A stretch of 42,273 nucleotides of DNA. Origin: Candidatus Omnitrophota bacterium (GTDB lineage: Bacteria > Omnitrophota > Gorgyraeia > Zapsychrales > Zapsychraceae). A program made the translations under genes and the position numbers. Below the pieces are notes generated by a model. The model was not told where the DNA came from and did not search any database. It worked only from the letters and a program-made list of their open reading frames with translations. Position 1 is the first letter of the stretch. The number at the start of each line of letters is the position of its first letter. Location of the stretch: positions 1-42,273 of the forward strand of contig JAHFGL010000019.1 in the NCBI GenBank assembly GCA_023247445.1, in the 5' to 3' direction. Of this stretch, positions 7,130 to 20,171 are shown piece by piece.

Positions 7130-8400
7130 TGGGAATTAAAAATAACCGCGGCTCAATCATGATTATCACGATGGGGTTTGTTTTAGTCTTTACCATGCTG
7201 GGACTTGGATCTCTTCATCATGCAGGGCTACAAAATGAGATGGCCGAAAAATTAAAATTTTCGAATCAAGCGTATTGGAGAGCTGAAGCTGGTATTCAAA
7301 AGGCTATTTCAAGAATAAATTATAATAAATGTACTAACTTTTTTCAATGTGGAACATCCCCAGCGATTCAATGCACGGATTGTAATTGCGCGGGAGCTAG
7401 CAAATGTCTCACCGAAACCTTTAATGACTCCCTTGGTGTCCAAATAGCGGATTATAATTTAAATGTAAACACTGACAATTCGATAATCATTTCAGCAGGA
7501 ACATCATATGCTGACACAACGGTAGCTAATCCTCAGAAAAGAAAAATTGGGGTTAGCAGTAGCCCATTTGCGTTTGCGCTTTTCGGGGATGACACAGTTA
7601 ATCTCGATAATAACAATCATGTAGACAGTTACGACTCGTCTAAATTAAAAAGCGATGGGACCCCCTGCCTTTATAATCAAGTTTGCGCGGATGGGTCAAC
7701 TAATGTTAATTCCACAGGAAATGTAGGAACAAATGGTACAGCAACAGACATAACACAAGGCAATGGGACAACAATTTCTGGTCAAGTAAGTTCTGATAAT
7801 AATATTACTCTGCCAACCGTAAGTGTCCCCTCGAATTTCAATGCAACAAATTCCGGGCAAACGGGGACAGCACCTTCAACTATTTCGGGTTCGGGAGATT
7901 ATACGTATGACAATATTTCCGATTCGTTAACAGTCACCGGTACGGTTAGACTTAAACTGACAACTTCCAGTGCTACGAATTCTATTACTTTGGGTAATGG
8001 TAGATTTATACGTCTTACAACGGGTTCAAGTTTAACAATATATGCAACTGGCCCAGGAGGGATAGCCGCTGATAATCCTAATGTTGCGATTAATGATGTG
8101 AATACCCCCTTACCAACAAATTTAATTTTCTATAGCATGGGGAGTTCAGATATAATAATAAAAAATAATTCACCGTTATATATGGCTATTTATGCTCCTA
8201 ATGCGGCTATTCAAATTCACAACACAAATCCGTCTAATGCGGTTTATGGATCGTTTATTGGAAAGTCTGTTAACTTTCACAATAATAACACTTTTCATTA
8301 TGATGAAGCTTTAAAGAAAAAAAGTCCTGGTATCGGTAATTTTGTCATCCTTAGCTGGCAAGAGTGTAACCCCTACGACACGTCCACCAACTGCACTTAA
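7129..8400 (+). CDS. PilX/GspK-like minor pilin with a large Cys-rich exported domain
   Basis: A 423-residue protein with an N-terminal hydrophobic helix after NNRG (residues 5-8), but without the Glu5 of ordinary pilins, as in PilX_N/GspK-type proteins. The helix leads into QAYWRAEAGIQKAISRI, the hallmark of PilX N-terminal regions. Six Cys follow at residues 68, 74, 82, 85, 87 and 93, with four more later. The C-terminal half is Ser/Thr/Asn/Gly rich. It contains an IYAPNAAIQIHN-like segment resembling the DUF7305 domain found in such proteins. It probably forms part of the pilus tip, possibly adhesive; the binding role is inference. It starts within the stop of the previous gene. Confidence 0.8.
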   Translation: MGIKNNRGSIMIITMGFVLVFTMLGLGSLHHAGLQNEMAEKLKFSNQAYWRAEAGIQKAISRINYNKCTNFFQCGTSPAIQCTDCNCAGASKCLTETFNDSLGVQIADYNLNVNTDNSIIISAGTSYADTTVANPQKRKIGVSSSPFAFALFGDDTVNLDNNNHVDSYDSSKLKSDGTPCLYNQVCADGSTNVNSTGNVGTNGTATDITQGNGTTISGQVSSDNNITLPTVSVPSNFNATNSGQTGTAPSTISGSGDYTYDNISDSLTVTGTVRLKLTTSSATNSITLGNGRFIRLTTGSSLTIYATGPGGIAADNPNVAINDVNTPLPTNLIFYSMGSSDIIIKNNSPLYMAIYAPNAAIQIHNTNPSNAVYGSFIGKSVNFHNNNTFHYDEALKKKSPGIGNFVILSWQECNPYDTSTNCT

Positions 8401-8498
8401 TCCCTTTCCCCACTGACGGCCAGATGCTTTATCTCCCGCCAAAACGTTAATTACTCCATTAAAAATCCTGCCTTTTCCACCATAACCTTCAAGCCTTT

Positions 8499-8545
8499 AA
8501 ATAGAATAAATTCTATTTGAAAAATGTCACCTCATAGGTTACACT
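8499..8545 (+). promoter_or_regulatory. higBA promoter and operator-like inverted repeat
   Basis: TTGAAA (8517-8522) and TACACT (8540-8545) are 17 bases apart. The -35 is overlapped by the inverted repeat AAATAGAAT-AA-ATTCTATTT (8499-8518), a likely HigA operator for autorepression. The -10 ends only 6 bases before the higB ATG at 8552, so the transcript should be leaderless or nearly so. Confidence 0.6.
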
Positions 8546-8551
8546 TACATT

Positions 8552-8845
8552 ATGATCAAAAGTTTCAAAGATACCGAAACTGAAGATATCTACAATGGGA
8601 CGAGAAGTAAAAAAGCCTTAAAACAATTGCCTATTGAACTTTGGAAAGTTGCATATAGAAAATTTTACGCCCTGGATCATGCAATATCACTCAACGACTT
8701 AAGATCGCCTCCTAACAACAAGCTCGAAGCGTTGATAGGGAATAGAAAAGGGCGGTATAGCATTAGGATTAATGACCAATATCGGGTTTGTTTTTATTGG
8801 ACATCTCAAGGACCAACGTCAGTTGAAATAGTTGATTATCATTAA
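8552..8845 (+). CDS. higB: HigB-type toxin (RelE superfamily mRNA interferase)
   Basis: This 97-residue protein begins IKSFKDTETEDIYNGT. Its second half has the conserved pattern LEALIGNRKGRYSIRINDQYRVCF, ending in VEIVDYH, which defines HigB toxins that cleave mRNA on the ribosome. Its C-terminal His and the Arg residues of the RYSIRIN-QYRVCF strand match family active-site residues. The antitoxin gene follows with its ATG 14 bases after the stop. The predicted -10 lies 6 bases upstream of the ATG, leaving no room for a ribosome-binding site. The pair interrupts the pilus locus. Confidence 0.9.
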   Translation: MIKSFKDTETEDIYNGTRSKKALKQLPIELWKVAYRKFYALDHAISLNDLRSPPNNKLEALIGNRKGRYSIRINDQYRVCFYWTSQGPTSVEIVDYH

Positions 8846-8858
8846 GGAGGATGTGAGT

Positions 8859-9194
8859 ATGAAATATAACTCTACAAAAACAACAATACGATTACCGCAA
8901 AACAGACCGCCTGTTCATCCTGGGCAAATATTGCTGGAAGAATATATGTTGCCTTATGATATTACGCAACAAGCCATGGCAACGCATTTAAAAATTTCCC
9001 GAAAGCACCTGATTGATATTATTCATGCGTCAAAACCAATCTCTCTTGAAATCGCCCAACGTCTAGCTAAACTTTTTCAAACTTCCATCGATTTTTGGAT
9101 TCAAGGCCAAATGGTTTATGATTTATGGCATGCAATACGTCATCCGAGTCCAAAGCTAAAATCTATTAAACCGCTAAAATTAAGTATGAATTAA
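8859..9194 (+). CDS. higA: HigA-type antitoxin (HTH, XRE family)
   Basis: The start at 8859 is chosen because AAGGAGG (8844-8850) lies 8 bases upstream; a start at 8832 inside higB would lack this site. The 111-residue product has the HigA signature PPVHPGQILLEEYMLPYDIT, then a helix-turn-helix (QQAMATHLKISRKHLIDII) and the AQRLAKLFQTSIDFWI tail. It should neutralise HigB and repress their common promoter through the inverted repeat at 8499-8518. The stronger ribosome-binding site for the antitoxin than for the toxin favours excess antitoxin. Confidence 0.92.
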   Translation: MKYNSTKTTIRLPQNRPPVHPGQILLEEYMLPYDITQQAMATHLKISRKHLIDIIHASKPISLEIAQRLAKLFQTSIDFWIQGQMVYDLWHAIRHPSPKLKSIKPLKLSMN

Positions 9195-9292
9195 ACGTTT
9201 TAAAATAATGGATCTAAAAAACTTCCCTAATGATCATGCAATCAGAGCTCTCTTTATTTTACAGGAAATAATTAATCTTTCTCGCCTTAAGA

Positions 9293-9321
9293 TTGACATA
9301 TTCCAATAGGTATGTTATCGT
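9293..9321 (+). promoter_or_regulatory. Probable promoter for the GspL-like gene
   Basis: A consensus TTGACA (9293-9298) is followed after 17 bases by TATCGT (9316-9321), a weaker -10. A start near 9328 would leave a leader of about 37 bases. No Shine-Dalgarno sequence precedes the ATG at 9365. Confidence 0.4.
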
Positions 9322-9364
9322 TTCACATATTAGAAATTAACCTCTGGCCTAATTCATTGTACCT

Positions 9365-10321
9365 ATGAAAAACTCTTTACTTGCTTTTGCCGCCTCATCG
9401 GCCGAAGAATTAGAAAATAAAATAACTACCAGCCTCAAAGAGAATCCTTCCAAAAGCCGTTTAACAACTTTAGCAATCGGCGGCCCACAGGTTTTAATCT
9501 GTCCATTTAACTTAGAGAAAATGTCCTCAAAAGAACTTCTGGCTCACTTGCGCTCGGAAGCGGTGGGGATGTTATCTCTGCCGCTCGATCAAATTGTCAT
9601 GGACTATCAGATTCTTTCAGGAGAGGACGAGACGGTTGCGGGGATCTATACCTGCCTGCCAAAAAGTTCTTTAGATGGATACTTGGCTGTTTTAAATAAT
9701 GCAAAGCTCATTCCCGTTAAAATCACAACATATTTTCTTGCCACGATCGATTCTTTTTTCCGACAACATGAAACCAAAAACGAGCGATTTTGCCTGATTG
9801 ATTTCTCAAAGGAAACCAATATTAACTTAGCGATTTTCATGGATCATCAATGTGAACTAATTAGGCAAATCCCCTACGATGACGACAATGAGGCTAAAAA
9901 CGAGGTCATCCAGTCACTGCGCAGCGCCTGTTCCAAAAGCCGCAACAAGCAATTTGATAACATTTATTTTTACGGCCATTTAACAAACAAAGAAAATCTG
10001 ATTCTGGAAATAGAAAAGGTCTTTAATACGAAAACCACACGCTACCATTCGATGGACGTAAGCTCCTTAACGACCCAGGATAATTTCTTTACAATAAACC
10101 TATTAAAAGAGCACGCATTTTCGCTTCAAGAGCGCCGTTTGATTTTTCTCGCTGTCCATGCGGTTTTATTAATTGTTCTCTTAGTTAACATCGGATTAGG
10201 GATAAAATTATTTGAAATAAATAAAAACATTACAGATATAAAGTCTTCTTATAACGATTCTGAGTATAGTTATGCGTTAAGTCTCCAAGAACAGGTGAAT
10301 GCACAACATGGCAAAAAATAA
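9365..10321 (+). CDS. GspL/PilM-like cytoplasmic domain with membrane anchor
   Basis: A 318-residue protein. The first 250 residues look like the divergent actin-like fold of GspL/PilM proteins: an alternating hydrophobic pattern with LRSEAVGMLSLPLDQIVMDYQI and, later, FCLIDFSKETNINLAIFMD, a phosphate-loop-like strand. One transmembrane helix follows (about residues 258-282, LIFLAVHAVLLIVLLVNIGL), then a short periplasmic coiled stretch. This arrangement, soluble domain then one membrane helix, matches GspL, which docks the assembly ATPase to the membrane. Sequence similarity is low and the name is inferred from layout and from the position next to pilin genes. The 3' end overlaps the next gene. 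Confidence 0.55.
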   Translation: MKNSLLAFAASSAEELENKITTSLKENPSKSRLTTLAIGGPQVLICPFNLEKMSSKELLAHLRSEAVGMLSLPLDQIVMDYQILSGEDETVAGIYTCLPKSSLDGYLAVLNNAKLIPVKITTYFLATIDSFFRQHETKNERFCLIDFSKETNINLAIFMDHQCELIRQIPYDDDNEAKNEVIQSLRSACSKSRNKQFDNIYFYGHLTNKENLILEIEKVFNTKTTRYHSMDVSSLTTQDNFFTINLLKEHAFSLQERRLIFLAVHAVLLIVLLVNIGLGIKLFEINKNITDIKSSYNDSEYSYALSLQEQVNAQHGKK

Positions 10322-10724
10322 ATTTTACCATTTTCTTACTTCCGATTCTCAATTTCGAATACGGCTCGCGATTTTTATTATTCTACTAATTGTTATCGGC
10401 TGGCAACAGCATGTCATTAAAGTCGAAAACAAACAACTGGCACGAGTCAAAGTCGAAAAAGAGCTCATTTCGCAGACAGCGCAAATGCAGGCCGCATTAA
10501 AGGGAAGATACATAAAAGAGACCGTTGTAAAAGCTCCATCCATTCCATTTCGCTTGCAAGGCATTACCCGTAAAAATGGCGTTTACTATGCCTTAATCGA
10601 TGGGGAAGTGCGCATGATCGGGGATAATCTGCAGGAATATAAGATCATCAAAATCATCAAGGATTTGGTTGTCCTTGAAAATCAATCCAACAAAGCCATC
10701 AAGCAGCTGTATCTTCAGAATTAA
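10308..10724 (+). CDS. GspC/PilP-like inner-membrane protein
   Basis: A start at 10308 is preferred over 10299 because AGGTGA (10293-10298) is 9 bases upstream of it but abuts 10299. The 138-residue product has one N-terminal membrane helix (about residues 20-36, AIFIILLIVIGW). A charged helical linker follows, then a small beta domain FRLQGITRKNGVYYALIDGE ending with VLENQSNK. That domain resembles the HR domain of GspC/PilP, which contacts the outer-membrane secretin. It overlaps the upstream GspL-like gene by 14 bases and closes the pilus cluster. The family assignment rests on topology and a short motif only. Confidence 0.5.
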   Translation: MAKNKFYHFLTSDSQFRIRLAIFIILLIVIGWQQHVIKVENKQLARVKVEKELISQTAQMQAALKGRYIKETVVKAPSIPFRLQGITRKNGVYYALIDGEVRMIGDNLQEYKIIKIIKDLVVLENQSNKAIKQLYLQN

Positions 10725-11561: not shown

Positions 11562-12266
11562 GTGAAAGTTACTTTACTTGTCCCAACCCTCAATGAAGTC
11601 GACGGAATAAAAACCGTCATGCCTAAAGTTAAAAAAGAATGGTGTGACCAGATTCTCATTGTGGATGGTCAATCAACCGATGGCACAATAGAAGCCGCTA
11701 AATCCCTAGGATACGAAGTCGTTGTCCAAAAAAAGAAGGGGATGCGCCATGCCTATATGGAGGCCCTGCCGTATATTAAGGGCGATGTTGTTTTGACCTT
11801 CAGCCCCGATGGCAACTCCATCCCGGAGCTTATTCCAGCCTGCATCAATAAGATGAAAGAAGGATATGACATGGTCATCGTCTCGCGGTACGCCCAAGGC
11901 GCCAAGAGTTATGACGATGATGCCGTGACCGCCTTTGGTAATAAATTATTTACGACCTTTATCAATCTCTTTCACGGTGGACATTACACCGATGCGATGG
12001 TCATTTACCGCGCGTACAAGAAAAATTTAATTTTTGATCTTGATCTTTACCAAGAGACTAGTTACGCAACCGAAGAAAAACTTTTTAAAACGGTTGTTAG
12101 CTGGGAACCTCTATTATCTATCCGCGCGGCCAAACGTAAATTAAAGGTGGCGGACATCCCCGGAGATGAACCAGCCCGTGAGGGAGGAGAGCGTAAACTC
12201 CAGGTTCTGCGTTGGGGAGCCGCGTATATGTTTGAAGTCTTTCGAGAAATTTTTATCTGGAAATAA
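11562..12266 (+). CDS. Family 2 glycosyltransferase (dolichol-phosphate-mannose-synthase-like)
   Basis: The 234-residue protein starts with GTG and reads MKVTLLVPTLNEVDGIKTVM, the GT-A nucleotide-binding strand of family 2 enzymes. ILIVDGQSTDGT follows, and FSPDGNS supplies the metal-binding Asp (the usual DxD is relaxed to PDGN). It lacks the C-terminal membrane helices of many relatives, so it probably acts at the cytoplasmic face of the membrane, transferring a sugar to a polyprenyl phosphate or another lipid. Donor and acceptor cannot be told. The GT-C-like membrane proteins that follow would be natural users of such lipid-linked sugars. Confidence 0.85.
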   Translation: MKVTLLVPTLNEVDGIKTVMPKVKKEWCDQILIVDGQSTDGTIEAAKSLGYEVVVQKKKGMRHAYMEALPYIKGDVVLTFSPDGNSIPELIPACINKMKEGYDMVIVSRYAQGAKSYDDDAVTAFGNKLFTTFINLFHGGHYTDAMVIYRAYKKNLIFDLDLYQETSYATEEKLFKTVVSWEPLLSIRAAKRKLKVADIPGDEPAREGGERKLQVLRWGAAYMFEVFREIFIWK

Positions 12267-12271
12267 TAACT

Positions 12272-12330
12272 AGGGTCAAGGGTCATGTAGCAAGGGGCAT
12301 GGCAATCCTTGTCCCCTGCCCCTTGACCCT
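12272..12330. repeat. Long imperfect intergenic hairpin
   Basis: The outer arms AGGGTCAAGGG (12272-12282) and CCCTTGACCCT (12320-12330) are perfect complements. The inner part (CAAGGGGCA / TGTCCCCTG) pairs further with mismatches. A T-rich run (ATTATTTTTT) follows, so it could terminate the glycosyltransferase transcript or be a spreading palindromic repeat. It resembles the element at 27221-27277 in layout, not in sequence. Confidence 0.6.
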
Positions 12331-12350
12331 CGATTATTTTTTCTCACCCC

Positions 12351-14255
12351 ATGCTATCAAGAAATAAAATCCACTCTACCCTTAAAACTCCCTGGTTTAT
12401 TTCTCTTATTCTCTTTAGCATCTTCATGCTTGCGTCCCACTATAAGTTTGGATGGGATGATCAGCACCTGGAAATCCCCCTTTTAAAAAGCCTGATTAAT
12501 CCTGCGCTCTATCAGGGAGACTACTACGTCGAAAGTCTTAAGAAAAACTTTGTTTCTTTCTTTTATACCATCCTGTCGCGCTTAATCACCGTTGATCAAA
12601 TCCCAACGACATATTTCATTCTCTATTGCATCTCACGTTACTTTCTATTTTATTGGATTTATAAACTCTGGTTACTTATTGCTGAAAATCGCTTTAAGGC
12701 CTTTGTCTGTGTTTTAGTTTTTATCTTGGTGGCACGGGTCGATGAATTTTTATATCGAACCTTTTCGCATCAGGAGTTTGCTTTAGCCATCATTTTTGGC
12801 GGCATATATTATTTTTTTAAAGAAAGATTTTTCCTCGCCGCAATTTTTCTAGGAATCGCCGCTAATTTTCATGCCCTTTACAGCCTGTTTCCCATGATCT
12901 TTATGGGAAGCTATTTACTTTGGCAAGTTAGAAAGCACGGATGGATGCTTCTTTTTAAAACATGTGGGTTATTTATTTTAACGAGCCTACCATTTTTGAT
13001 CTGGTTTATAAAAAACAGAGTCGTAGGCGCCGTGGCCCACCCGGTTACTCTAGGTCCCGACTGGATATCTCTATTTATCGCCGCCTGTCCACAAAATTTC
13101 TTTTTTACTGACGCGACACTAGTTCCCTTTTCTGGGATCATAAAAGATGTCAAAATCTTTTTGCACTTTACGCAATCTTATCTTTTACTAACCAGTTTAT
13201 TTTTTCTAAACTTTTTCTTTCATCCTAAATTTCGTTTAAACAAAAAAGCCTTGGCATACAGCGTAGCCGCCTTTGGACTTCTTGGTTTATGCTTTATTTT
13301 CACCTATCTTCATCCGCTGCGATTCTTTATTGATCTTAACTTAACGCGCAACACTCAATTCTTGTTATTTCTCTTAATGGGATATACAACCATCTTTGTC
13401 ATTGAAAGGATAGAAAAGGAGGGGGCACTTTTAGCCCTAGTTGTGGCCATTCTTTTTACCTTTTTAAAATATAACGATGCCATTGCCACGTTTTCTAGTC
13501 TACTCCTGTGGTTTATTTTCTTTAGTAAACAGTGTCTTACATCACATCCAAAAAGTATAGTCACAAAATTTCTGGTTGGGGCGGCCACGATCGTAAGTCT
13601 TCCGCTTATCTACGGAATCATTTATTATTTTAACATTACGATGTACAGCTTTACTGTCCGATTAAATTTAGCCATACTTTTTAGCTTACTCTTGGCTTAT
13701 TATTTTCTTTATCGCTATATCCCTCAAAGAGACACTCTCTTTTTCAAACGCATTTTCATTCTCATTCCACTTTCTATATTTCTTTTTCAATACAGCAGTT
13801 ATCATTACCAACGGTTAAAAAAGGAAAACGAGGGGATGGGATTTTGGCAGTTGCAAAGAAGTTGGGAGGATATGCAAAAATTCGTTAAACAAAATACACC
13901 TATTAATGCCATGATCTTTGTTCCCTACAATATGGAAATGGGTGGATTCCGTATTTTTTCTGAACGAAAAATTGTTGTCTGTTATCGCGACTGTGGCATT
14001 ATTGGCTTTGACTACAATGCCGCACGAGAATGGCAGAAAAGGGTGCATGATGTTGAAGCTTTTAAATATAATATCGGTTCGTCGCCTCAAAAAGCAATTC
14101 AAAATGCGATTGGTAAATACAAAGCGGATTATATTGTCTTTGTCCGCTATGCTTCGCCAACAAAGGATACCGATCTTTTCGAACGCGTTTATACCAACAA
14201 TGATTTGGTTCTTTTTAAAATCCATCGGGATATTATGTTTGATAGATCATTTTAA
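12351..14255 (+). CDS. Large polytopic membrane protein, GT-C-like
   Basis: A 634-residue protein with about a dozen hydrophobic segments over residues 15-480. A first loop carries GWDDQHLE, an acidic pair in the position expected of GT-C glycosyltransferases. A soluble C-terminal domain of about 130 residues follows, with RIFSERKIVVCYRDCGII and YIVFVRYAS. The C-terminal motifs resemble the DUF6798 type of membrane protein. It probably works on lipid-linked sugars at the outer face of the inner membrane. Substrate and activity are unknown, and DUF membership was judged by eye. No Shine-Dalgarno sequence precedes the ATG. Confidence 0.65.
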   Translation: MLSRNKIHSTLKTPWFISLILFSIFMLASHYKFGWDDQHLEIPLLKSLINPALYQGDYYVESLKKNFVSFFYTILSRLITVDQIPTTYFILYCISRYFLFYWIYKLWLLIAENRFKAFVCVLVFILVARVDEFLYRTFSHQEFALAIIFGGIYYFFKERFFLAAIFLGIAANFHALYSLFPMIFMGSYLLWQVRKHGWMLLFKTCGLFILTSLPFLIWFIKNRVVGAVAHPVTLGPDWISLFIAACPQNFFFTDATLVPFSGIIKDVKIFLHFTQSYLLLTSLFFLNFFFHPKFRLNKKALAYSVAAFGLLGLCFIFTYLHPLRFFIDLNLTRNTQFLLFLLMGYTTIFVIERIEKEGALLALVVAILFTFLKYNDAIATFSSLLLWFIFFSKQCLTSHPKSIVTKFLVGAATIVSLPLIYGIIYYFNITMYSFTVRLNLAILFSLLLAYYFLYRYIPQRDTLFFKRIFILIPLSIFLFQYSSYHYQRLKKENEGMGFWQLQRSWEDMQKFVKQNTPINAMIFVPYNMEMGGFRIFSERKIVVCYRDCGIIGFDYNAAREWQKRVHDVEAFKYNIGSSPQKAIQNAIGKYKADYIVFVRYASPTKDTDLFERVYTNNDLVLFKIHRDIMFDRSF

Positions 14256-14265
14256 GAATGAGTTA

Positions 14266-14293
14266 TTGAAGAGAAAATGGAATTAGCTATAAT
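14266..14293 (+). promoter_or_regulatory. Promoter for gpsA
   Basis: TTGAAG (14266-14271) and TATAAT (14288-14293) are 16 bases apart. The expected start near 14300 gives a leader of about 35 bases to the chosen gpsA ATG at 14335. An upstream in-frame GTG at 14299 would be leaderless. Confidence 0.6.
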
Positions 14294-14334
14294 GCAAGGT
14301 GCACATTTGGAAATCCGGATTACCAGTTAAAACC

Positions 14335-15339
14335 ATGTCAAAAATAAAACACATAACGATCATCGGTGACGGCGGCTGGGGAACGGCGCTTGCGATTCAT
14401 CTGGCCCAGCAAGGAGCGCACGTTAAAATCTGGGGACCTTATGCTAAGTATCTAGCCAAAATGCGCCAAACTCGTATTAATAAAAAATTTCTCCCTAACT
14501 TAAGAATCCCTGATTCAGTTGAGTTTGTTGAACAATTATCGATCGCCGTTTACAGTAGTGATCTGGTTGTCTTCGCCGTTCCTTCAAAATATGCTAGAGA
14601 TGTTTTGACCCACCTTAAAAAAACGAAAACGAACTTTTCTAAAAAAATATTTTTAAGTGTGACCAAAGGCGTTGATACAACCAAACTCCAACGAATCACT
14701 GAGATTATTCGAGAGCAATTAGGCGATGTAACCGTTGCTGTCCTTTCGGGTCCTAATATCGCCTCAGAAGTTGCCAAAAAAATTCCATCCTCCGCAGTTG
14801 TTGCCTCTAAAAATGCTAAGGTCGCAAAAATGATCCAAGAAACTTTTAATACTCCAACATTTCGTATTTATACCAATACCGATGTGATTGGAGTTGAACT
14901 GGGGGGAAGCATTAAAAATATTATCGCCATTGCCTGCGGGGTTTGCGATGGGTTAGGATACGGAACAAATACCAAAGCCGCCCTTTTAACGCGCGGGTTA
15001 GCAGAAATGGCGCGGCTTGGAAAGAAACTGGGAGGAAAGCTTGAAACCTTCTCAGGTTTAAGCGGCTTAGGGGATCTTGTGACCACATCATTTAATCTAC
15101 AAAGTCGTAATCGTAGCGTTGGCCAAAAGCTCGGGGAAGGGAAGACCATCAAACAAATTACATCGAAAATGGATATGGTGGCCGAAGGGGTGGAAACAGC
15201 CAAGGCGGTTTATAATCTTAGTAAGAAATACAAAATCCCCATGCCAATTACAACTGAAGTCTACAACATCATCTACAAAAATAAAAAACCACAACAAGCC
15301 GTGTTGGATTTAATGCATCGCAAAACAAAATCTGAATAA
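14335..15339 (+). CDS. gpsA: Glycerol-3-phosphate dehydrogenase [NAD(P)+]
   Basis: A 334-residue enzyme with the N-terminal dinucleotide-binding motif IIGDGGWGTALA. It contains VLSGPNIASEVAKKIP, the substrate-binding ELGGSIKNIIAIACGV and the LSGLGDLVTT segment, all diagnostic of GpsA. It reduces dihydroxyacetone phosphate to sn-glycerol 3-phosphate for phospholipid synthesis in the cytosol. ATG 14335 is chosen because the conserved fold begins there; the in-frame GTG 14299 would add 12 residues with no family match. The stop overlaps the ATG of the next membrane protein (TAATG), so lipid precursor supply and envelope assembly may be co-expressed. Confidence 0.95.
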   Translation: MSKIKHITIIGDGGWGTALAIHLAQQGAHVKIWGPYAKYLAKMRQTRINKKFLPNLRIPDSVEFVEQLSIAVYSSDLVVFAVPSKYARDVLTHLKKTKTNFSKKIFLSVTKGVDTTKLQRITEIIREQLGDVTVAVLSGPNIASEVAKKIPSSAVVASKNAKVAKMIQETFNTPTFRIYTNTDVIGVELGGSIKNIIAIACGVCDGLGYGTNTKAALLTRGLAEMARLGKKLGGKLETFSGLSGLGDLVTTSFNLQSRNRSVGQKLGEGKTIKQITSKMDMVAEGVETAKAVYNLSKKYKIPMPITTEVYNIIYKNKKPQQAVLDLMHRKTKSE

Positions 15340-17264
15340 TGGCTTTTCTTCTCACCAATTTAATTATTCTTTTTGCACACTACACCTTAGTCGTGAGATT
15401 CAAGATCGCACGACTAACCGATAAAATTATCTTTATTTTTGTTTTATTTTCCGCACAAATTATTCTCACGATACTCGTTCTTGGAATCTTTCACTGGCTT
15501 TATCTATCTTGGCTTATTGCCTTTAATCTAACCCTTGCAGCTCTCATCATTCTCTTAAACAACATCCCAACATCTGATATTCTACTGGCGCTACGTGAAG
15601 ACTTCCTTAAGTTAAAAGAAGGGGGTAAATTAATTTTTGCCTCAATCTCAAACATTCTTCTAACCTTATTATTTCTCGTTGTAACGCTATGGATGTTTTT
15701 AGCCTCACATCTTCTTCCACCGCGTGGAGTCGATGATATAACCTATCATTTGCCGGCGATCTATGAATACATCATCCAGCATAGAATCTACACATTGCCA
15801 ACTGATGTGCGCATCTTTTTTGCCTTCCCCCAAAACGCCGAACTTTTATTTCTTTGGCCAACGATCTTTTTCCACAATGTCAGCTGGATTGGTTTGATTC
15901 AATTCTTTGTTACGATCGCTGGCATTATTATTGTTTACGCCCTGGCACGAATCTTAGATATCAAGCCGTCCTTAGCCTATTTTGTGGCGATACAATTCTT
16001 ATTTGCACCGCTGGTATTAGCGCAAGCCGGCAGTGCTTATATTGATACCATGACATCAGTCTATTTTCTGCTTAGTCTTTATCTCTCTGTACAATTTTAT
16101 CGAAAAGGGGGGCTGGTTTATTTATACATGGCGGCACTATCGATGGGGCTAATGATTGGAATGAAATACAGCATGTTGGCCATGGCCGTTATTTTACAAA
16201 TGTTTATTGTTCCCAAAATTTTCAAAGAACATAAACGAACAATATTTATCTACGTAAGCATCATTTTTCTAGCTGGGGGATATTGGTATGTTAAAAATTT
16301 AATCGAATTAAAATCGCCATTTTATCCCATGAGTATTTTCCATAAAGGCTTAGGTGTCTTTGATGGCAATGCCACGATCAACCCTATTGATATGTATCTA
16401 CAATGGCCCGCTAAATATGCGCTGCTTTTTATTGAAGACACTGGGTTAGGGAGTTTCCACGGCGGATTTGGATTAACCTTTCTAGGCATCGCGTTTCCGT
16501 GTTGGGTTTTTGTTTTCTTAAAATCAATCCAACAATTTCGCTTATCTAAAAATCTTATTCCCATTGGTATTTGGGTTCAATTCATTCTCGGCTATTGGAT
16601 CCTTTTTATGGTTCCACTGGGACAATTATATCTTTGTCCGCGCTACTCAATCTTTATTATTCCCATTGGACTTTTGGCCATGGGAACAATTCTTTCTATC
16701 ACCAAGAATAAAATCTACACGACAGCCATTAAAACATTATGTTGTATTTTTTCCATTTTAGCTGTAGTTGAACTGGCTATTGTTCGTTTGCCGTCGTATC
16801 GCATTGATGCCCCCATTAAAGATTTGATCGCAGGAAAGAATGTTTCAAAGAATAAATATCTTAAATTTTCTTCCTTCATGCCGAGCATTAGTTATTCATG
16901 GGAACTTTTGGATCTATTAACTAAAGATGATCCCAAGGGCTTAAGTTGCTATGTTGCCATTGATGGGCAATTCTACTTTGTGGCTCCTACCTATGGTATA
17001 AATTTACAAAATCGCGTCTGGAATCTTCAAAACGATGTATCAACCAAGCCCGATGCCTTGATCTATTATTTAAACGCAAGAGGAGACGCTTTCTATTTTA
17101 AAACAAAAATTCCACTTGAAGAGGCCATGAATGATCCCTATTATGAGTTGATCTTAAAAATCAATCAGGAAAGTTATCTTTTTGTTCGTAAGGACTTTAT
17201 TGATCAACCATCAAAAAGAAAACTTTTGGCCCAATTTCATCACGACTTATTAACCAATGAATAA
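15339..17264 (+). CDS. Polytopic membrane glycosyltransferase-like protein (GT-C fold)
   Basis: A 641-residue protein with about 12 membrane segments. The first large outside loop contains PRGVDDITYHLPAIYEYI, where the Asp pair after the early membrane helices corresponds to the catalytic acidic motif of GT-C enzymes such as family 39/83 transferases. A later loop has the FPQNAELLFLWP pattern common in this class. The last 150 residues form a soluble domain. It probably transfers a sugar from a polyprenyl-phosphate donor; donor and acceptor are unknown. Translation is coupled to gpsA by a 1-base overlap. Confidence 0.7.
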   Translation: MAFLLTNLIILFAHYTLVVRFKIARLTDKIIFIFVLFSAQIILTILVLGIFHWLYLSWLIAFNLTLAALIILLNNIPTSDILLALREDFLKLKEGGKLIFASISNILLTLLFLVVTLWMFLASHLLPPRGVDDITYHLPAIYEYIIQHRIYTLPTDVRIFFAFPQNAELLFLWPTIFFHNVSWIGLIQFFVTIAGIIIVYALARILDIKPSLAYFVAIQFLFAPLVLAQAGSAYIDTMTSVYFLLSLYLSVQFYRKGGLVYLYMAALSMGLMIGMKYSMLAMAVILQMFIVPKIFKEHKRTIFIYVSIIFLAGGYWYVKNLIELKSPFYPMSIFHKGLGVFDGNATINPIDMYLQWPAKYALLFIEDTGLGSFHGGFGLTFLGIAFPCWVFVFLKSIQQFRLSKNLIPIGIWVQFILGYWILFMVPLGQLYLCPRYSIFIIPIGLLAMGTILSITKNKIYTTAIKTLCCIFSILAVVELAIVRLPSYRIDAPIKDLIAGKNVSKNKYLKFSSFMPSISYSWELLDLLTKDDPKGLSCYVAIDGQFYFVAPTYGINLQNRVWNLQNDVSTKPDALIYYLNARGDAFYFKTKIPLEEAMNDPYYELILKINQESYLFVRKDFIDQPSKRKLLAQFHHDLLTNE

Positions 17265-17445
17265 TTCAAATCCGCCAAACAATCAAACTTCGATCACAAA
17301 GAAAGAGGCCCATTTACTCTTTCTGCTGATTCTCATCTTTACCGCTATCCAGCTGATTTTCAATCTAGAACATTACCTGGTGGCGATCCCAAATTTTGTC
17401 CACGTTATGACCAGCATAGGTGACTTTTTAAAACATCTTTTCTAG
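17257..17445 (+). CDS. Small single-span membrane protein
   Basis: A 62-residue frame begins 8 bases before the stop of the upstream GT-C-like gene, indicating coupled translation. A hydrophilic N-terminus (NNSNPPNNQTSITKKE) is followed by one clear membrane helix (LLFLLILIFTAIQLIF) and a short tail. I recognise no family. The overlap, sensible topology and short gap to the next gene support it as real. It may be an accessory of the flanking membrane proteins. Confidence 0.5.
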   Translation: MNNSNPPNNQTSITKKEAHLLFLLILIFTAIQLIFNLEHYLVAIPNFVHVMTSIGDFLKHLF

Positions 17446-17467
17446 TCGTTAAAGGCACACTAAAAAT

Positions 17468-19435
17468 ATGTTTGTTAACAAAAATGGTTGCCAAAAAGCT
17501 TTTCTTTTAGCCAACTCCGTATTTTTATTTATTTTCTCGGCTTACGTCCTAGATTTAATTTCTGAAATTCTATCGGTCGTGTACGGCGGGTTTTCTCTTA
17601 TTTTTATTCCTCTTAAAGTTTATCTTTATAGCGGACTTTATGGTGTGATGGTTGATCTAGTTAGTAGGGAGGCCATCATGCTTGAGTATAGTAGCCTCCA
17701 TCAAAATGCCAAGAAATTCTGGCGGATTTATACGCTTCTATTAATTCTTTGCTTTTTTATCCAAGCATTATTAGTCGCTATCTCTCCAGGACATTTTCTT
17801 ACTTCGTCTTCAATTTTTTACAGGCATATCAGCATTGTTTTTTCTTTCCTAATGATTATTGGGATTCTTCACAAAAAATATCCTGAAAAATTTAAAAAAC
17901 CGTTGCGGGCGATTGCCCTTTCTCGAGAAAATATTCTTGTCATCATATTTTTATATCTATCTGAAATGTTTATTTTTTATCAGCCGCAATTTATCAGTAT
18001 CACCAACATTTTTATACAAAATATTTTAGAGATTGCCGCCAAATATCTTCATTTTCTCGAGTTTCTATATTTGACCATTATCGTCCTTAAACAATATCCC
18101 GAAATAATAGAAGAGAATGATTCTTCCAAAGAACTATTCTTGGTTTATCCTAAAACCTGCGGCAATGAATCACCATTTTCAAGCACTGTTTTCAAACGGG
18201 TCATGACTTTTCATCCTCCTTTTTTTGTGATTCTTAAAGCACTGACACCTAAAAATTATAGAATTCGTAAATTCAATCGTATCTTATGGCGTGATGAATA
18301 TTTTAGGGGTAATAAACTCGTGGCCATTACCTGTTTTAGTTCAAACAGCGCTGAGGCCTACAAAGTTGCAAAAGAATTCAAAAAGCGCGGGTCAAAGGTT
18401 GTGATTGGCGGGCCCCATGTTTCCTTTCTCCCTGAAGAGGCTTTAGAGTTTTGTGATAGCGTAGTTATTGGCGAGGCGGAGGGGGTCTGGCCACAGATTA
18501 TTGAAGATTATGAAAACAATTGTTTAAAACGCACTTATTCTGGAGGAAAAATAGAGGAGTGCCACGAAATCGTTTATCAAGAGCTTCTGGAGTCAGCCCC
18601 AGAGGTGATTAAAGATTTCTTGGAAGTTAGTCGCGGATGTAAATACACGTGCCATTTTTGCACGGTCCCAAGTATCAGCGGATCAGGTGTTCGGACTAAA
18701 CCCGTTTTTCAATTGGTTGAGTTAATTAAAAAAATTCGACATAAATATAAACGACTCATTTTTATCGATAACAATATTTACAATGATCCGCAGTATGCGA
18801 AAGAGCTTTTCAGACAACTGAAGCCACTAAAAATCCAGTGGTTTGCTAATGCCACGCTTGATATGGCCAAAAATGAGGAAGTTCTTCAATTGGCCAAAGA
18901 AAGCGGATGTTATATGCTTCTTTTTGGATATGAAATTAATGACAGTTCGATTGAAAAAAACCGCGGCGGAAAATTTGGAATGGTTGATAAATATTTAGAG
19001 CTTACCCAGAAAGTTCATAACGCTGGCATTCCTTTTAAAGCAACATTTATTCTAGGATGGGATTCACAAAATTTTCGAGGACTTCTTGATTTATGGCGCT
19101 ATTGCCTAAAGCTAAAACCTTGGGTAGCGATTCCGTTTCTTCTGACGCCTTTTCCCGGGACAATCGTTTTTGAGAATATGCTCAAAGAAAAGAGAATTCT
19201 TAGTCTTAATTGGAAGAATTACAATCAATGGCACGGGGTGATTAAATATAAGAATTTTGAGGGAGTTATCCTCGATCGGTTGTTTATTGTGTTTTGCGTG
19301 ATCAGTTATTGCTTCGGCTCAAGATATTTCCGTAAAATCGCTTATATCTTCGGATGGGCCTTTGTCAGCATATTTGTGTTTTTTATAGTTATCATGATAG
19401 GTATTGTTTTCTATAAATTCTTATTAGTTCAGTGA
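17468..19435 (+). CDS. Membrane-anchored B12-binding radical SAM protein
   Basis: A 655-residue protein with three parts. Residues 1-220 contain about six membrane helices. Residues 260-360 form a cobalamin-binding-type Rossmann domain with VVIGGPHVSFLPEEAL and VVIGEAEGVWP. Residues 380-600 are a radical SAM core whose 4Fe-4S cluster ligands are C391, C395 and C398 (CKYTCHFC), followed by LIFIDNNIY and TPFPGT. A last membrane helix lies at about 628-650. B12-dependent radical SAM enzymes often methylate or rearrange lipids or natural products. The attached membrane region suggests a hydrophobic substrate. No such enzyme with this exact domain order is known to me, and the substrate is unknown. 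Confidence 0.85.
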   Translation: MFVNKNGCQKAFLLANSVFLFIFSAYVLDLISEILSVVYGGFSLIFIPLKVYLYSGLYGVMVDLVSREAIMLEYSSLHQNAKKFWRIYTLLLILCFFIQALLVAISPGHFLTSSSIFYRHISIVFSFLMIIGILHKKYPEKFKKPLRAIALSRENILVIIFLYLSEMFIFYQPQFISITNIFIQNILEIAAKYLHFLEFLYLTIIVLKQYPEIIEENDSSKELFLVYPKTCGNESPFSSTVFKRVMTFHPPFFVILKALTPKNYRIRKFNRILWRDEYFRGNKLVAITCFSSNSAEAYKVAKEFKKRGSKVVIGGPHVSFLPEEALEFCDSVVIGEAEGVWPQIIEDYENNCLKRTYSGGKIEECHEIVYQELLESAPEVIKDFLEVSRGCKYTCHFCTVPSISGSGVRTKPVFQLVELIKKIRHKYKRLIFIDNNIYNDPQYAKELFRQLKPLKIQWFANATLDMAKNEEVLQLAKESGCYMLLFGYEINDSSIEKNRGGKFGMVDKYLELTQKVHNAGIPFKATFILGWDSQNFRGLLDLWRYCLKLKPWVAIPFLLTPFPGTIVFENMLKEKRILSLNWKNYNQWHGVIKYKNFEGVILDRLFIVFCVISYCFGSRYFRKIAYIFGWAFVSIFVFFIVIMIGIVFYKFLLVQ

Positions 19436-19639: not shown

Positions 19640-19716
<77 letters not shown>

Positions 19717-19778: not shown

Positions 19779-20171
19779 ATGAATCAAAATCCTCAATCTT
19801 TTTCTGGTGATGACCGACGACAATACAAACGGATTGCGAAAAATTTTATCCTAACCTATTACGACAAAAGTGATCCAAAAAAGAAATACGAAATTAGCCA
19901 ATTGAAGAATATTAGCCTGGGAGGAATGTGTTTTATTACCTCTAAGGGATATCCTCCTGGAACAAAAATTGCCATTGAATTAAAAACACCCTACATTTCT
20001 GACACGACATATTTGGAAGGAACCGTTGTGGGGGCCAATGAAAAGGTTAAAAATATTATTTACGAAACACGGCTTAAATTTGATGTAATTAACCCTCAGG
20101 CTGAATTTTTATTGGCCAAGTTAATTGATTTCTTTATTAGTGGGAGGAAAAGTATCGATGAACAAGATTAA
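19779..20171 (+). CDS. PilZ-domain protein, probable cyclic-di-GMP receptor
   Basis: The 130-residue protein is a single PilZ domain. The two c-di-GMP-binding motifs are intact: RRQYKR (residues 13-18, RxxxR) and NISLGG (residues 44-49, the N/DxSxxG motif). It probably links c-di-GMP to motility, pili or surface polysaccharide. Its 3' end overlaps hom by 14 bases, an unexpected partnership with threonine biosynthesis. It may instead serve the pilus and glycan genes upstream. Confidence 0.88.
   Translation: MNQNPQSFSGDDRRQYKRIAKNFILTYYDKSDPKKKYEISQLKNISLGGMCFITSKGYPPGTKIAIELKTPYISDTTYLEGTVVGANEKVKNIIYETRLKFDVINPQAEFLLAKLIDFFISGRKSIDEQD

Follow-up and report, generated by a model that had tools for sequence, protein, structure and literature searches.

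What does a radical S-adenosylmethionine (SAM) enzyme do when its B12-type domain and catalytic core are fused to a membrane domain, and does it act together with the genes around it? The question is raised by a gene in the window, the whole stretch of 42,273 nucleotides analysed here, from contig JAHFGL010000019.1 of a Candidatus Omnitrophota bacterium (assembly GCA_023247445.1). An earlier note, made from the DNA alone, had read the protein as a single chain in which about six membrane helices at the N-terminus precede a cobalamin-type domain, a CxxxCxxC core and a last membrane helix, and had proposed a pathway with the genes upstream. We confirm the protein and its architecture. Our computational analysis identifies as the genetic partner of the enzyme a previously undescribed membrane protein, here called c1, on the basis of linkage, fusion, co-occurrence and co-evolution.

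We modelled the enzyme with AlphaFold from a 25-row alignment (the enzyme and c1 were each predicted as a single chain). The model has a predicted local distance difference test score (pLDDT) of 87 and a predicted TM-score (pTM) of 0.83, and it contains six long N-terminal helices (residues 19-39, 42-65, 74-105, 114-137, 153-175 and 181-208), followed by a B12-type alpha/beta domain, a radical SAM barrel and the C-terminal helices. This supplies the structure prediction of the N-terminal part that had been suggested as a check. Pfam finds Radical_SAM on residues 386-538 (E = 1.2e-13, 52 bits against a cut-off of 29.5) and B12-binding (PF02310) on residues 284-342 (E = 1.7e-9, 38 bits against 32.1), and the C391-C395-C398 triplet is unvarying across the 25-member alignment. 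The Pfam score, the cysteines and the modelled barrel place the protein in the radical SAM superfamily, while the PF02310 score and fold matches to MgmA and TsrM give it the domain layout of class B, the B12-binding class. The fused architecture described earlier is thus upheld by Pfam and AlphaFold together.

The N-terminal domain (215 residues) had no convincing Pfam match in any of the 24 members searched, so that its helices do not turn out to be a known separate family. The window copy scores 220.7 bits (E = 2.3e-65) against the six-helix profile A3, of which it is itself a row, and by this sequence test it belongs to family c0, defined by the six-helix domain and the B12/radical SAM core. 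Averaged over 42 full-length copies, the lysine and arginine charge of the loops peaks at the N-terminus and in loop 134-154, and because of this the predicted topology that fits is N-in, with the catalytic part on the cytosolic side. With this topology, the conserved residues N80, K137 and Y138 map in the model to positions where helices end on the cytosolic side, a place that would suit a polar head group.

We surveyed the neighbourhoods of 53 non-redundant enzyme copies or fragments at 46 loci. The gene for a protein of about 200 residues, c1, usually lies at the 3' end of the enzyme gene in tail-to-tail orientation. The two are convergent neighbours in at least 35 of the 53 copies, counts that include a few fragments, and in 20 the 3' ends overlap, by 4-60 nt. 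Within 6 kb, c1 is found at 38 of the 46 loci; generic response regulators come next with 8, and no other non-radical-SAM family exceeds 4. Tandem arrays of two or three enzymes have a single c1 in common (loci L031, L050 and L088). In two genes, of 847 and 865 aa, c1 is fused to the enzyme N-terminus (MAG, or metagenome-assembled genome, SMBSF21; G017:C17), and in two further places it is co-directional, directly upstream of the enzyme in genome G011 (L046) and directly downstream in L083.

Among 285 Omnitrophota genomes, the 13 with clear matches to c1 are also the 13 with clear matches to the enzyme's N-terminal domain, each search adding one weak match elsewhere. Pairwise distances among enzymes and among c1 proteins are also correlated (mirror tree, r = 0.79, 33 pairs), a value reached by none of 2000 free permutations (maximum 0.28) and by 6 of 5000 permutations within genomes. 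Both genes are under purifying selection, with a ratio of nonsynonymous to synonymous polymorphism (pN/pS) of 0.13-0.39. The c1 model is all-helical, with four long helices (pLDDT 87); D22, W28, L128, Q130 and E133 are among the most conserved residues, and there was no match to a known family in Pfam, NCBIfam or PDB folds. Protein-level conservation, purifying selection, and the fused and co-directional copies rule out an antisense artefact. Homology between c1 and the N-terminal domain of the enzyme was likewise rejected (hhalign probability 0.3%). Fusion, linkage, co-occurrence and co-evolution suggest that the two proteins form a physical complex. In practice c1 is a second gene, and expression tests of the enzyme without it may fail; the natural one-chain fusion simplifies tests of structure and activity.

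When one genome per species was scanned, the family turned up in Omnitrophota and in one MAG labelled Elusimicrobia; the scan used two short peptide patterns, which distant members outside Omnitrophota could escape. Most of the genomes are MAGs, and contig ends cut several loci. The distribution is patchy, with one to five copies in each of the 13 Omnitrophota genomes. In the tree, most tandem copies group as sisters and the remaining paralogues of a genome are dispersed; within a genus, orthologous copies stay stable (G001/G018). The outgroup consists of related B12 radical SAM proteins that lack the N-terminal domain yet have the C-terminal helix, and for this reason the six-helix domain may have been gained once. 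Such relatives, of 430-474 aa with the C-terminal helix only (L098; L109 in Ca. Velamenicoccus archaeovorus), are about 33-38% identical in the core but lack the N-terminal membrane domain, and c1 was not detected at their loci. A 61-aa open reading frame (ORF) with two spans lies directly upstream of the one in L098 (9788-9973). Among distant core relatives, soluble B12 radical SAM genes occur two to four in tandem, for example at L119:7121-12593 in Peptoclostridium litorale and also in L114, L118 and L124.

The enzyme is far under the cut-off of every curated family. HpnJ (TIGR03471) is the top model with 79.9 bits against a cut-off of 577.6, followed by the MJ_1487-type model (75 against 251), the ladderane model TIGR04072 (68.6 against 360), BchE (53.1 against 481), HpnR (49.4 against 650) and MgmA TIGR04014 (45.8 against 360). 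Together with the unmatched N-terminal domain, these scores support the earlier view that the protein matches no described family. HpnJ shares the B12-type domain and the radical SAM core, but its match, over residues 387-575, leaves the six-helix domain untouched, and we know of no c1-type partner of HpnJ.

In the fold search the catalytic part resembles AprD4 (PDB 6fd2), MgmA (9ccb) and TsrM (6wte). AprD4 is the top match both by fold (E = 2.7e-14) and by profile against PDB sequences (1.3e-11), but it is 16% identical, acts on an aminoglycoside and has no membrane domain. It is a radical SAM 1,2-diol dehydratase that is not known to use B12; a B12-like fold can be cobalamin-free. MgmA, a B12 radical SAM glutamine C-methyltransferase, and TsrM share the catalytic fold (TM-score by target 0.61 and about 0.5, respectively), whereas their chains of 417-567 residues lack a membrane domain and are 13-16% identical to the enzyme. 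The substrates of both are soluble. The likeness to Tes, GrsAB and the ladderane enzymes lies elsewhere: they are shown or proposed to apply radical SAM chemistry to the chains of membrane lipids (PMC8941075, PMC13142503), although Tes is not predicted to be clearly membrane-integral (PMC8941075). Neither the 20 PDB sequence matches (to E 10) nor the 50 fold matches listed include Tes, to which no direct alignment was made. A search of the open-licence literature returned no membrane-fused cobalamin radical SAM protein, and the B12 radical SAM enzymes known to us are either soluble or, at most, peripherally attached to the membrane.

To act on membrane lipids, a B12 radical SAM enzyme has to pull a very hydrophobic substrate out of the bilayer. 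We propose that the pair is a two-component, membrane-embedded B12-type radical SAM enzyme that methylates or joins unactivated carbons of a membrane lipid, a reading to which we give about an even chance. The six-helix domain and the last helix would hold the catalytic domains against the inner membrane on its cytosolic side and would form a lateral entry for the hydrophobic substrate, with c1 acting as a subunit or as a partner that presents the substrate. A 5'-deoxyadenosyl radical would be made from SAM, as the family suggests, probably with cobalamin, which the enzyme is likely to use. The radical chemistry would then methylate or join carbons of an acyl or polyprenyl chain. The membrane domain, and the conserved polar residues placed where helices end on the cytosolic side, point to a lipid-like substrate in the cytosolic leaflet; a membrane substrate, as supposed from the start, is thus a reasonable inference. 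By analogy, our best guess at the reaction is that lipid chains are methylated or undergo carbon-carbon coupling: hopanoids are substrates of other cobalamin radical SAM enzymes, for which ladderane and tetraether lipids are proposed as well (PMC13142503), and Tes, a radical SAM protein, joins the chains of archaeal lipids (PMC8941075). The wider proposition, that Omnitrophota carry, in several paralogues per genome, a B12-type radical SAM enzyme that combines a six-helix membrane domain of its own with a dedicated four-helix membrane subunit and carries out undescribed lipid radical chemistry inside the bilayer, we hold more tentatively, at somewhat less than an even chance. If true, it would offer a direct model for radical chemistry at the membrane.

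Several observations weigh against this proposal. No lipid-biosynthesis gene recurs near the enzyme at the 46 loci. Cobalamin use is not assured, because the top structural match, AprD4, is not known to use B12. No c1 ORF lies 3' of the window enzyme, which is followed by tRNA-Pro and then a PilZ gene, and L044, L071 and the G004 pair are also without an adjacent c1 (the G004 contig is short). Finally, the secreted protein encoded directly upstream of the enzyme in three genera would fit a protein substrate too.

A protein substrate is the main rival because of these three genera. The enzyme would methylate or cross-link a membrane or secreted protein, in some genera the secreted protein of about 210 aa encoded directly upstream (G000, L031; G010, L035; G007, L036), and MgmA, a close fold, methylates a protein glutamine (PMC11796369). 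But the secreted protein is present at only 3 of the 46 loci, and with the catalytic side predicted to be cytosolic it could be reached only before export; we regard this explanation as unlikely, though worth keeping in view. A membrane-anchored protein of 229-233 aa precedes the secreted one in two of the three genera. Neither has a convincing Pfam match, and both are possible extra members of the module.

That the nearest curated model, HpnJ, is a hopanoid enzyme would agree with action on a small membrane-soluble cofactor or terpenoid, such as a quinone, hopanoid or carotenoid. All curated hopanoid, BchE and ladderane models miss widely, however, no terpenoid genes recur nearby at the 46 loci, and a patchy presence in one to five copies per genome is ill-suited to a core cofactor. 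We consider this improbable.

The neighbouring genes suggest a different substrate, a polyprenol-linked glycan or glycolipid made by the GT2 and GT-C proteins, as the earlier note had proposed. The gene order it gave (GT2, DUF6798 multi-span protein, gpsA, GT-C, 62-aa ORF, enzyme) stands, and the enzyme is co-directional with the GT-C gene and gpsA, with short gaps and overlaps; the genes may well be co-transcribed. A GT-C protein (PMT_2) is also directly upstream of a relative in L034, and GT2-type genes are near 4 of the 46 loci. On synteny, however, we reject a glycan-lipid operon. The GT2-DUF6798-gpsA trio is kept together in many relatives (GT2 73-84% identical, DUF6798 protein 43-57% identical), where it continues after gpsA as tRNA-Pro(GGG), PilZ and hom, and the block is conserved in relatives that lack the enzyme there. 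Conversely, about 50 relatives of the enzyme occupy 45 other loci with unrelated neighbours, an outcome that the earlier note itself had named as refuting its reading, and G007, G010 and G030 have the block without the inserted genes plus the enzyme family elsewhere. Relatives of the GT-C protein at 15339 occur where the enzyme is absent, in two cases in sugar-nucleotide clusters. For these reasons the pathway spanning 11562-19435 is not supported as a conserved unit, and a glycan role is already disfavoured as the general function; as an account of this enzyme it seems to us distinctly improbable.

In L222, L227, L228, L229 and L230, tRNA-Pro lies within about 70-240 bp of gpsA, while in the window the interval is 4.3 kb and holds the GT-C gene, the 62-aa ORF and the enzyme; therefore these three genes were added in this lineage. 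L225 has an interval of 1.1 kb. Two further lineage-specific inserts, a gene for a Laminin_G/GDSL-lipase protein (L222:10692-13433) and a different small secreted protein gene in the L225 interval (1746-2453), mean that the block tolerates insertions. Of the two GT-C-like proteins claimed earlier, that at 15339-17264 has a PMT_2 match below threshold (22.3 against 26.1) and that at 12351-14255 carries DUF6798, so that the description holds loosely. The 62-residue single-span protein is real as an ORF, but as a gene it is unproven, with no credible homologue in any fetched locus.

A mobile or selfish cassette, such as a defence or conflict system, would agree with a pair that is patchy, multi-copy, self-contained and in unrelated contexts, and with a decayed enzyme gene in several pieces (L182:9727-11659, G011:C43) beside an intact c1 (8949-9554), but we give it very little credence, since orthologous copies are stable within a genus, PADLOC returns a weak match over the radical SAM part only, with nothing for c1, and a single-sequence scan (the alignment being too little conserved for scanning) found no c1 relative in viral contigs; on these results a defence system and a viral origin, respectively, were rejected.

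The window copy itself is best read as a diverged, intact-looking orphan. It forms a long lone branch in the tree (0.97) and has FGS in place of the TTS motif of the family near the C-terminus. Among core positions conserved in at least 95% of copies it departs at one, with Q for the usual D534, and it retains the N-terminal marks G56, N80, K137, Y138 and F199. Three more enzyme copies lie in tandem in the same genome (G000:C27:53856-59650), and the sole c1 found there is beside this array (C27:59678-60283). The enzyme of the window may share this c1 in trans; alternatively, it may have become independent of c1. The earlier note missed c1 because this copy has none adjacent.

Table 1. Features of the window and of two sets of related loci. 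Positions are those of the window unless a locus is named.
Feature	Position	Strand	Remark
Conserved block GT2, DUF6798 protein, gpsA	11562-15339	+	Old synteny independent of the enzyme
GT2	11562-12266	+	Block member
DUF6798 multi-span membrane protein	12351-14255	+	DUF6798 at its C-terminus (Pfam)
gpsA	14299-15339	+	Block member
Three-gene insertion	15339-19435	+	Lineage-specific; between gpsA and tRNA-Pro
GT-C-like multi-span protein	15339-17264	+	Sub-threshold PMT_2, 22.3 against 26.1; part of insertion
62-aa single-span ORF	17257-17445	+	Overlaps stop codon of preceding gene
B12-domain/radical SAM membrane protein (family c0)	17468-19435	+	655 aa, ORF intact
Six-membrane-helix N-terminal domain, residues 1-215	17468-18112	+	No Pfam family; conserved G56, N80, K137, Y138, F199
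B12-binding-type domain, residues 222-360	18131-18547	+	Pfam PF02310 and AlphaFold model
Radical SAM barrel, residues 384-590	18617-19237	+	Pfam PF04055 and fold search
CxxxCxxC motif, C391/C395/C398	18638-18661	+	Read in sequence; invariant in alignment
C-terminal helices, residues 599-617 and 619-654	19262-19429	+	AlphaFold model; last helix membrane-spanning
tRNA-Pro(GGG)	19640-19716	+	Bounds insertion; PilZ gene next at 19779
Natural c1-enzyme fusions	L084:2541-5084 and 8001-10598		One contig, MAG SMBSF21
Regions of upstream secreted protein of about 210 aa	L031:8389-9777, L035:8269-9616, L036:11332-11952		Gln-rich in L031

Elsewhere in the window, at 8552-9194, lies a HigBA-type toxin-antitoxin pair, in which a gene for a HigB-like toxin (Pfam 59.9 bits) overlaps an HTH_3 antitoxin-like gene.

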